From positions 62,001-126,000 of the forward strand of contig CAJOEI010000002.1 in the NCBI GenBank assembly GCA_905233465.1: 64,000 bases of DNA. Reading direction: 5' to 3'. Below the pieces are notes generated by a model. That model did no database searches and had not been told where the DNA came from. It saw only the letters and a list, made by a program, of their open reading frames with translations. The stretch is from an uncultured Bacteroidaceae bacterium. GTDB lineage: Bacteria > Bacteroidota > Bacteroidia > Bacteroidales > Bacteroidaceae. Below, piece by piece: positions 37,880 through 40,421 of this stretch. Made by a program: the position numbers and the translations under genes. How positions within the stretch are numbered: the first letter of the stretch is position 1; the number at the start of each line of letters is the position of its first letter.

Positions 37880-37925
37880 TAGATGAAAAGTTTAAAGTTT
37901 AAAGTTTAAAGTTTAAAGTTTTCAT
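37880..37925. repeat. TTTAAAG heptad run upstream of the DUF4294 gene
   Basis: Five consecutive TTTAAAG-type heptads between the Fur-family gene stop and the DUF4294 promoter. Confidence 0.8.
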
Positions 37926-37944: not shown

Positions 37945-38376
37945 CTAACCTTGCGTCCGACAATTGACACACACACCTTTTATCAGGACGTTGACGCTCT
38001 CTATGGCAAAACCTTCTGGCACAAGCACTTCCGGTATGGGCTGTGTGCGAAAACAATATGTACGATGGCAGCGTGTACAATAGAAATGCATGTGCTGGTC
38101 ATCATCGTCTTCGGCATCAGACGAGGTGCAGACCTCATACAGAGCCACTCCCGACCCATCTTCCAGCGCATGTATCAGGTGTGCTCCATGCAACAATGTC
38201 AGTGTGCGGAAGATTGTAGAGCGGTCCACGGTGTCGAGCTCATCGTCCAACTCACGCAATGACACTGGACGGCGATGCCTGGCCAATGCCGCATAGACAA
38301 GCTGGCGAATGGCCGTGACCTTAACGCCATGAGACTCCAATAGCGAATCTATTTGTGCATGATTATTGCTTGCCAT
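37945..38376 (-). CDS. Fur-family transcriptional regulator
   Basis: 143 aa: an N-terminal winged helix (KVTAIRQLVYAALARHRRPVS; STIFRTLTLLHGAHLIH) and a C-terminal metal-binding domain with HMHFYCTRCHRTYCF and CVNCR, giving two CxxC pairs for structural zinc. It could be a Fur, Zur or PerR type; the acidic DAEDDDDQHMHF stretch does not decide. Its upstream region is the 22-bp periodic array at 38409-38680, which begins about 30 bp before the start codon, so the array may be its own operator or leader. Confidence 0.9.
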   Translation of the reverse strand: MASNNHAQIDSLLESHGVKVTAIRQLVYAALARHRRPVSLRELDDELDTVDRSTIFRTLTLLHGAHLIHALEDGSGVALYEVCTSSDAEDDDDQHMHFYCTRCHRTYCFRTQPIPEVLVPEGFAIESVNVLIKGVCVNCRTQG

Positions 38377-38408
38377 GTTTCTTTATAAATAAATGTCAGG
38401 TTGGAACT

Positions 38409-38680
38409 GGTAAAACAACCGCAAGTTGATGCTGAATCATCCGCAGATTTTGCTTTGTCCACGTTCGTGGAGCATTTCGTACACGTTCGCGGACGATATT
38501 GTCCGTGGTCGTGGACGATATTGTCCGTGGTCGTGGACGATATTGTCCACGATTGTGGAGTTATTCGTCCACGATTGTGGACAGAATCGTACACGTTCGT
38601 GGACAGATATAAACCTCTGGTGGTTTAACACGCAAATACTGGTGGAACAACACGCAACCTATGGTGGTTTGACAGGTGGG
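38409..38680. repeat. 22-bp-period tandem array of short imperfect inverted repeats
   Basis: Seven core units of the form GTCCACG(A/T)(T/C)CGTGGAC and variants start at 38457, 38479, 38501, 38523, 38545, 38567 and 38589, exactly 22 bp apart. The periodicity continues left (CCGCA at 38419 and 38441; arms CAAC/GTTG and AATC/GATT) and right (GGTGG at 38619, 38641 and 38663; AACACGCAA at 38627 and 38649; arms AAACC/GGTTT at 38611-38626 and AACC/GGTT at 38656-38669). It fills the gap between the Fur-family and nucleoside-kinase genes. Coding is unlikely because 22 is not a multiple of 3. Its function is unknown. Confidence 0.9.
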
Positions 38681-38689
38681 GCCAGTGCC

Positions 38690-39679
38690 TCAATACTTGA
38701 ACGTTGAACCTCCGAGGAACTCGCGCAGCAGCGATGTCAATGGAATCTGGCGGTCGGTGATAGGTTCGAAGCACTCCAGCAGCGACAACAGACGGTCTGC
38801 ATCCTTGCGCTCTGGTGTGTCGAAGGGCACAGCCTGCAGCATCGGCTCCACCTTAGTCCTCAGAACCGACAACTCATACACCAATGCGCTGTTGACCATC
38901 ATGTCGGCATTGTCCTGGAAGGGGAATATCCAGCGCTCTTCTCCCGCACGCACACTTGGCCAGCGATGCAGTGTCTCACAGGCTGAATATTTGCGATACT
39001 TGCTATCACGAATGATGCGACGCAGCAAGCGGTTGTCTGCCGAAGATATGCTCTTGCCGCCATCCAGCCGTATGGTGGTCAACGCAGAAACATAGAGCAG
39101 GAACTTCTCTTCGTCGGGAATATCGGGCGTGAGGTCTGGATTAAGTGCATGTATGCCTTCCACGATGAGCACATGTTGTGGCATCATCTGCAATGTCCTT
39201 CCACTGTCTATACGTTTGCCAGTAGCAAAGTCATATTTAGGCAGCTGGATGCTCTGGCCGGCGAGCAAGGCCTTAAGATGTTCATTGAACAGAGGCACAT
39301 CCACAGCCTGCAGACACTCGAAATCGTATTCTCCATTCGCGTCGCGTGGTGTACGTTCGCGTTCCACAAAGTAGTCATCCATAGATATTGCAATGGGCCA
39401 TAGGCCTGTAGCTGCCAGCTGCACACTGAGCCGCTTTGCCGTGGTGGTCTTGCCGCTGCTGCTGGGACCAGCCAGCAGCACAAGTCGTGATCCTAAGCGC
39501 TTGATATGGTCAGCTACCCGTGCAATCTGGCGTTCTTGAAAAGCCTCGGCCACAGAGATGATCTCGTGTGAATGACCATCCAGTATCGCTGCATTGAGCT
39601 CCTTTGTGGAAGAGAGACCCAATATTTCCTGTAAGCGACGCTGCTCGCATACAAGCAAATGAAGTTTACGACTATACAT
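38690..39679 (-). CDS. Nucleoside (uridine) kinase family protein, short form
   Basis: 329 aa from ATG 39679; a GTG at 39724 overlapping the sirtuin stop would add 15 residues. The P-loop LAGPSSSGKTTTAKR, then ISMDDYFVERERTPRD and VLIVEGIHALNP, match phosphoribulokinase/uridine kinase enzymes of the Bacteroidales nucleoside kinase type. Those proteins are usually ~550 aa with an N-terminal TGS and ThrRS-like region; here the protein begins just before the kinase core, so that region is absent and no remnant is visible upstream. It may still phosphorylate uridine or another nucleoside. Confidence 0.82.
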   Translation of the reverse strand: MYSRKLHLLVCEQRRLQEILGLSSTKELNAAILDGHSHEIISVAEAFQERQIARVADHIKRLGSRLVLLAGPSSSGKTTTAKRLSVQLAATGLWPIAISMDDYFVERERTPRDANGEYDFECLQAVDVPLFNEHLKALLAGQSIQLPKYDFATGKRIDSGRTLQMMPQHVLIVEGIHALNPDLTPDIPDEEKFLLYVSALTTIRLDGGKSISSADNRLLRRIIRDSKYRKYSACETLHRWPSVRAGEERWIFPFQDNADMMVNSALVYELSVLRTKVEPMLQAVPFDTPERKDADRLLSLLECFEPITDRQIPLTSLLREFLGGSTFKY

Positions 39680-39713
39680 AACATTTACTATTAGGCTGTT
39701 TGCTATTGTTTTT

Positions 39714-40421
39714 TTACTGTGCACTACCTAAAATATGCATCAGTTCTGCCATACCTTCGCTGGCGCCCTTGAGGATGTGGCGGAAGGGGTGGCTGGCATT
39801 CCACTGAACAGGTTTGGGATCAATGAGATATATCGGACAGTCGTCAGCAGCAAAGCCCACCAAACCAGCTGCCGGATACACGTTCAGACTTGTGCCAATG
39901 ACGATGAGGATATCAGCCTTCATCACGGCATCCACGGCACGTTCAATCTCAGGCACAGCCTCGCCGAACCACACGATGAATGGCCTCAACTGGCTGCCAT
40001 CGGCCGCTGTATCACCAATGTGAATATCCTGGTCAGGAGCCAGCTGGACAATCTGTCGCGGATCATTGGGTTCGCGGGTTGATGTGGCCTTCAGCAGTTC
40101 GCCATGCAGGTGTATGATGTTCGTAGAGCCTGCACGCTCGTGCAGGTCGTCGACGTTCTGTGTCACCACGGTGACATCATAGTCTTGCTCCAATGCCGCC
40201 ACAAGTTCGTGCCCCCTGCAGGGCTTGACCTGCGGCAACTGACGTCGGCGCTCGTTGTAGAAATTGATGACAAGCTCCGGATTGCGGATGTAGCCATCAA
40301 TACTGGCCACATCTTCCACACGATACTGCTCCCAAAGTCCACCCGAATCGCGAAAGGTGCTGATTCCACTTTCAGCGGACATTCCAGCACCTGTCAATAC
40401 GACAATATTCTTTCTGTTCAT
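39714..40421 (-). CDS. cobB: NAD-dependent protein deacylase, sirtuin (CobB-like)
   Basis: 235 aa. VVLTGAGMSAESGISTFRD is the NAD-binding motif, TQNVDDLHERAG follows, and HLHGEL has the catalytic His. WFGEAVP and VIGTSLNVYPAAGL complete the core. The four zinc cysteines of many sirtuins are absent, which is usual for Bacteroidales members as far as recalled. The start ATG at 40421 is used; upstream residues fall in the 5' leader. Its -7 box is at 40479-40486. Confidence 0.92.
   Translation of the reverse strand: MNRKNIVVLTGAGMSAESGISTFRDSGGLWEQYRVEDVASIDGYIRNPELVINFYNERRRQLPQVKPCRGHELVAALEQDYDVTVVTQNVDDLHERAGSTNIIHLHGELLKATSTREPNDPRQIVQLAPDQDIHIGDTAADGSQLRPFIVWFGEAVPEIERAVDAVMKADILIVIGTSLNVYPAAGLVGFAADDCPIYLIDPKPVQWNASHPFRHILKGASEGMAELMHILGSAQ

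Follow-up and report, generated by a model that had tools for sequence, protein, structure and literature searches.

What is the array of short inverted repeats that recurs every 22 bp beside a Fur-family gene in the window (the whole stretch of 64,000 nucleotides analyzed here), and might a protein read it? Our preferred answer, which we hold with a probability of about 0.5, is that it is one copy of a dispersed element made of 16-bp palindromes at exact 22-bp spacing, which probably serves as a platform where dimers of a putative DNA-binding protein would sit side by side.

The array and its copies in the source genome

The array covers window positions 38391-38670, with no strand assigned, and comprises 13 units (three flank, seven core, and three flank), each a 16-bp dyad plus a 6-bp linker, at a period of 22. 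Its core (38457..38610) contains seven 22-bp units of the GTCC-N8-GGAC type, whose starts at 38457, 38479, 38501, 38523, 38545, 38567, and 38589 keep a pitch of exactly 22 bp, as originally predicted; the core dyads span 38457 to 38604, plus the linker. Four of the seven units have one altered arm base; two units start with GTAC and two finish with GGAG. The period had also been predicted to go on at both sides, and it does so for three in-register units per side, near the limits first proposed. The left arm (38391..38456) holds three flank units of dyad plus linker, defined by the dyad register pooled over 17 copies and imperfect in the window copy, while the right arm (38611..38676) is defined by the family alignment, in which it is the inverted-repeat homologue of the left arm; the last of its three 16-bp dyads stops at 38670. 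Over all 13 units, 61 of 104 dyad pairs are Watson-Crick in this register, while the 21 others give 17 to 45. The six flank units alone give 21 of 48 pairs and another register gives 22, which is not significant here, and an early caution that arms this short can match by chance was therefore right for the window copy taken alone.

The element occurs at no fewer than 21 places in the 2.54-Mb source genome, a lower bound taken from the matches listed to a two-unit pattern with up to two mismatches, the window included. This search gave 67 forward matches in the genome and the exact two-unit pattern gave 29, with 0 for the backward-read control in both cases. The family alignment contains 17 copies; an eighteenth (C30:1375), whose register is broken, was dropped, and three places outside the alignment (C1:128807, C4:64833, and C9:12795) are known as pattern matches only. 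Copies have between 2 and 7 core units and are 170 to 280 bp long in total. Across the 17 copies, flank units 1 to 3 on each side have a mean of 2.9 to 3.9 of 8 pairs in register versus about 1.9 in other registers, and the pooled flank units are clearly nonrandom; farther out, starting with unit 4, the signal falls close to background, with left unit 7 as an exception (2.65 versus 1.96). Left arms and reverse-complemented right arms have a common position-specific consensus, with information that fades about 66 bp from the core, and these 66-bp arms are homologous as inverted repeats in all 17 copies, as terminal inverted repeats are in a MITE. No target-site duplication was found in the 17 copies, the best offset pair occurring in 3 of them at length 4 and arm ends not being favored. 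Among 18 copies, 16 have no mechanically called open reading frame (ORF) of at least 90 amino acids running across them, and we take the ORFs that cross the window copy and C1:66845 for spurious.

An array of hairpins might instead act as RNA, in cis on transcripts, and as RNA the window array does fold far better than shuffled sequences. The two strands do so to a similar degree (z = −7.2 and −6.9), as is expected of a palindrome array, and because both strands fold, folding cannot separate an RNA from a DNA reading. The original prediction had suggested a structured RNA or DNA element and had noted units that pair fully only as plus-strand RNA with G-U pairs. The strong fold was found, and in the window copy so was the bias of mispairs (8 G-T and 1 A-C), but neither extends to a strand preference in the family: over the 17 copies there are 68 G-T and 82 A-C mispairs, and 10 of the 17 have both kinds. 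Since the two kinds are similar in number and mixed within single arrays, we conclude that the family has no strand polarity. Moreover, no Rfam family matched at the array at gathering score (only a tRNA elsewhere in the window did), a string of hairpins has no obvious need of fixed spacing, and the arrays lie between genes in every orientation (4 convergent, 3 divergent, and 11 codirectional of 18, by mechanical ORFs). A structured RNA is thus very unlikely. Elsewhere in the window, many short AAAGTTT-type heptanucleotide repeats are scattered, for example at 37887-37921.

Neighboring genes and sites without the array

The gene adjoining the array (37945..38376, minus strand) was predicted to be of the Fur family, and its match to PF01475 agrees; it is a neighbor of the array by position. 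On the other side lies a PRK/uridine-kinase-family gene (38690..39724, minus strand; PF00485). This gene pair is kept in eight relatives of the genus, where the estimated gap is −17 to 108 bp (negative values being overlap) versus 313 bp here, and the DNA between the two genes contains no 22-bp dyad array in any of the eight (best three-unit sum, 11 to 14 of 24). The Fur gene was found in 17 of 31 genomes. Lack of both the period and the arm complementarity in close relatives had been named at the outset as grounds for doubting the pattern. Both are indeed absent at this site, but the copies elsewhere speak against chance, and an array-free PRK-Fur site together with copies elsewhere in the genome points to gain or loss of a real element. 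A second such site is found in Prevotella nigrescens FDAARGOS_1486, where a GTCCAA-type array lies between traG and a DUF4141 gene of a conjugative transposon; matching transposons in P. nigrescens F0103 and Prevotella sp. F0039 (91 to 92% identical) are 176 bp shorter there, and the array is missing. Sites without the array show that arrays are gained or lost; which of the two, we can only infer.

A multisite operator had been among the first suggestions, and the position of the array 5′ of the Fur-family gene fits an operator of that gene. However, the element lies at 21 or more places, beside unrelated genes wherever neighbors were scanned, and its absence between PRK and Fur genes in the eight relatives leaves this version of the suggestion hardly credible; a multisite protein-binding element of wider use fits best. 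The nearest ORFs of the 17 copies, of which 32 of 34 were scanned, are mutually unrelated and diverse in Pfam content. No obvious reader protein or transposase was seen among these 32, one of which has a winged-helix (HTH_24) domain, and there is no common neighbor gene, with ORF clusters spanning at most three genomes. Given unrelated neighbors and ordinary gene orientations, a regulon is unlikely, and a genome-wide role (DNA organization, segregation, or a mobile element's own machinery) is suggested over a single regulon.

That copies also come and go is shown by their dispersal, their inverted-repeat arms, and the array-free sites. It is possible, if somewhat unlikely, that the element is nothing but a mobile, nonautonomous repeat of the MITE or Rickettsia palindromic element kind, whose own recombinase would use the dyads, with no host role and with arm spellings set by whichever recombinase was last active. 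The dispersed copies and their 66-bp arms would follow from this, as would the array-free sites in the eight relatives and in two of the three related transposons, and two copies (C14 and C25) are alike at unrelated loci, their likeness beginning near the arm ends when judged by eye. Against it stand the lack of target-site duplications, the lack of a transposase among the scanned neighbors, and a search for the Y1 (RAYT-like) transposase family PF01797, which gave 0 matches in the source genome (85% complete) while its control matched in 5 of 14 known genomes. Furthermore, dead copies of a mobile repeat should decay one arm at a time, and resident copies in proA (see below) keep their dyads with other arms.

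Arm spellings within and between genomes

We return to the proposed protein platform with a survey of 139 genomes of the genus. Three CCA-N4-TGG motifs in a row at 22 bp occur in 30 of the 139 genomes (227 forward matches, summed by hand) and in 0 of 139 at either 21 or 23 bp. The backward-read control, GGT-N4-ACC, gave 20 forward matches at 22 bp in eight genomes (6 in G097 and 8 in G109), 1 at 21 bp, and none at 23 bp; matches such as those in G097 and G109 may be chance or further dialects. The GTCC-type two-unit pattern was found in 7 of the 139 genomes. Since 109 of the 139 have no CCA-N4-TGG triple, the system is either patchy or spelled there in other dialects.

To follow the outer arms, which the CCA-N4-TGG pattern leaves free for three bases per arm, we took the middle unit of one array from each of the 30 genomes, keeping G153 although it resembles another kind of repeat. 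Outer pairs are Watson-Crick in 73 of 90 cases, versus a mean of 40.6 (standard deviation, 3.9; maximum, 57) after redistribution of the right arms across genomes; slid partners give 8 to 31 of 90. The whole outer triplet is complementary in 17 of the 30 genomes, in eight spellings (permutation mean, 3.05; maximum, 12). The outer arms vary between genomes yet remain complementary. Complementary arms would by themselves show a dyad, not binding.

We then compared half-sites in 46 arrays from 11 genomes, chosen out of 56 arrays and all found without fixing the outer arms and not all of them CCA-N4-TGG triple matches; the other 10, found with GTCC fixed, were excluded since that pattern favors agreement (between-genome agreement is 0.11 with them and 0.06 without). 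Whole half-site triplets agree at 0.70 between arrays of one genome versus 0.06 between genomes (maximum of label permutations, 0.236), at 0.73 between units of one array, and at 0.80 within a unit. The 22-bp flanks of the same 46 arrays agree at 0.29 within and 0.27 between genomes, and linkers at 0.59 within (0.80 in G072) and 0.41 between. Spelling can be almost uniform within a genome, with TTC at 42 of 42 half-sites in G016, GTG at 24 of 24 in G066 and 48 of 50 in G017, and GTT at 36 of 38 in G072. Units with unlike halves make up 30 of 150 overall, including 9 of 10 in G106 and 10 of 35 in G120, whose 70 half-sites are mixed (41 GTC and 19 TTG). In most genomes sampled, a prevailing arm dialect is thus shown across unlinked loci with unrelated flanks. 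Copies therefore resemble each other at the positions that a protein would read, to some extent in the linkers, and not outside. The within-genome sharing of linkers is as some copying would give, and it counts in favor of a mobile repeat.

Could such patterns arise without any reader? In a neutral scheme, slippage would keep the 22-bp unit, quasi-palindrome correction would match the arms, and gene conversion would homogenize the genome. The likeness of units within an array, the 30 of 150 units with unlike halves, and the variable core number are all consistent with such mechanics, which nevertheless seem distinctly improbable to us, since agreement at unlinked loci with unrelated flanks is nearly as high as within arrays and the motif triple is absent at 21 and 23 bp throughout the 139 genomes. 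A decaying minisatellite, another early suggestion, does not account for arms that differ from species to species at a single site and yet stay matched, or for their agreement across unlinked loci.

The site in question lies within proA, and it also shows copies inserted in frame within genes, as a mobile repeat of the Rickettsia palindromic element kind would be. In an alignment of 31 ProA proteins (that of locus L118 plus the 30 best loci, out of 95 genomes that gave a match), 6 have a long loop at one position. The remaining 25 do not, including that of G112, which has a middle-length loop and no array. The loop DNA of G120 and G152 contains three GTCCCA-N4-TGGGAC units and that of G130 three TTGCCACCAGTGGCAA units; G133 has GTTCCA-type units, one with an unlike half, and G143 has three units in three spellings, the first imperfect. 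In G155 the best-scoring register is 11 bp off that of the other species, and since its dyads are weaker in the common register (by eye), we regard it as a weak case. Loop-bearing relatives are 80 to 95% identical to the G120 protein, while G161 ProA is 84 to 93% identical to it in two matching parts and lacks the loop. Close relatives thus have proA arrays at one position, in frame, with different matched arms, and the common position and conserved flanks suggest that one ancestral array was rewritten and not replaced. The proA spelling of G130, TTG, recurs at three of four other places in the letters printed for that genome, the fourth being mixed; in G133 and G143 spellings are mixed, and there is no simple match between the arms in proA and those in the rest of the genome. 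A histidine kinase-like protein likewise has an in-frame array, which lies at the same aligned residues in two species (G068 and G018).

A dimeric DNA-binding protein is favored by three features together, namely, the two-turn pitch, dyads without strand polarity, and the agreement of dialect across loci. The last is the strongest argument for a reader protein, whose existence we still infer. Related species keep the layout and spell the words differently, which makes it likely that a putative DNA-binding protein reads the arrays. A trans-acting dimeric protein would read the outer half-sites, its dimers lying side by side on one helix face, and contact between neighbors would fix the two-turn spacing. 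Reader specificity may drift between species, with the sites following, and new copies would arise through some insertion process. A bolder form of this proposal, which we advance tentatively and at less than even odds, is a genome-wide protein-site system whose half-site dialect is rewritten in place in each genome as it follows a fast-evolving dimeric reader, such that the same landing sites in related species, even in proA, would carry mutually unreadable spellings. If a reader exists, nature would have provided a series of matched site dialects, all on the same fixed scaffold and in several states at a single orthologous position, and the coevolution of a DNA-binding protein with many sites would become directly testable. 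If the element does no more than move, Prevotella-like bacteria have a palindromic element that can sit in frame inside genes and whose helical pitch stays rigid. In both cases, ordinary gene annotation would miss such arrays.

Known repeats and other carriers

No description of such arrays was found among the titles and abstract openings of the papers that the literature searches listed. REP/BIME sequences, as summarized in excerpts of two papers, are palindromes that are dispersed, lie mainly outside genes, and often form clusters with regular spacing (PMC2817692, PMC3733652), and the source genome, with its 21 or more places, likewise has dispersed clusters of palindromes. However, REPs are described as 20 to 40 bp long, most with a tag at one end (PMC3733652), while the arrays here have 16-bp dyads at a fixed 22-bp pitch, generally in runs of at least three, and the search of the source genome turned up no Y1 transposase. 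Among Bacteroidales, the BrickBuilt MITE of Porphyromonas gingivalis, described with 19 occurrences in strain ATCC 33277 (PMC4596501), is also an intergenic repeat with tandem short units. It differs in its 23-nucleotide unit (consensus, AGAYCATARTATCCTCTCRTRTG), which we do not read as a dyad, and in its leader and tail with IS5-like ends, and its authors found it in P. gingivalis and P. gulae only (PMC4596501). Compared with that printed consensus, the unit here is 22 bp long and a dyad of other sequence. Klein et al. (2015; PMC4596501) mention earlier observations of direct repeats of 41, 23, and 22 nucleotides in P. gingivalis W83, so a 22-nucleotide repeat is in itself no novelty in this order.

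Rickettsia palindromic elements are likewise palindromic mobile DNA that lies in frame in protein-coding genes, as the arrays in proA and the histidine kinase-like gene do and the window copy does not; they are about 150 bp long, and the excerpted account mentions no periodic 22-bp dyads or arm dialects (PMC10969869). PINSR is a 188-bp intergenic repeat amplified in the Prevotella intermedia/nigrescens group, which includes P. falsenii and P. nigrescens, both array carriers here; in contrast to our arrays, it is described as lacking terminal inverted repeats, and the passages compared mention neither dyads nor a 22-bp period (Naito et al. 2015; PMC4755523). Within a 100-kb stretch of P. nigrescens, repeats did not reach a depth of 4, a strict dyad scan gave 0, and a looser scan gave 15 versus 11 in 87 kb of genus loci, a comparison by which the loose scan alone proves nothing.

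In viral contigs, GTCC-N8-GGAC dyads at the 22-bp pitch occur in 58 stretches (L139-L196), versus 13 for the reversed-arm control. By mechanical calls, 51 of the 58 lie inside an ORF, and of 10 proteins scanned from these ORFs, 9 (three of them weakly) match replication-initiation PHROGs and 1 has no match. O proteins of the lambda type bind iterons that lie within their own gene. We therefore set the viral arrays aside as initiator-gene iterons, which share the dyad type and pitch and differ in lying inside an initiator gene instead of in dispersed intergenic copies; the 17 aligned copies of the source genome have unrelated genes as neighbors. The window array itself had no match in phage and plasmid collections. 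A P. histicola array had no phage match and, among plasmids, matched only P. nigrescens (E value, 0.01); Lactiplantibacillus matches at an E value of about 7 were taken as chance.

A search of genome contigs gave 71 stretches, a list that is biased by the GTCC arms of the pattern and may omit records of the window's own genome, and 26 loci were viewed. Named carriers include Segatella maculosa, Prevotella histicola, P. veroralis, P. falsenii, and Porphyromonas loveana, along with several metagenome genomes of Prevotellaceae/Bacteroidaceae. A genome from horse feces has three-unit arrays (12 Horse_feces104 loci between L068 and L128), most of which, by eye, are preceded on one side by about 100 bp of conserved DNA ending in a ACTTAAGCnnGAAAAA-like sequence, with unrelated sequence on the other. 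Arrays at L296, L231 (G162), L282 (G124), and L106, from three genomes, lie near a VapE-like (PF05272/DUF3874) gene; those of G162 and G124 are in like position, with the spellings GTC and GTA. The genome-contig matches also include high-GC actinobacterial, myxobacterial, and other non-Bacteroidota stretches, of which nine loci and a further one were viewed. Over a dozen 22-bp GTCC-type arrays occur in the metagenome-assembled genome of an Actinophytocola sp., a high-GC actinobacterium (L073, L092, L095, and other NZ_WHTD contigs), and in the three that were viewed, linkers are constant within the array (CCGCGA or TCGCGG).
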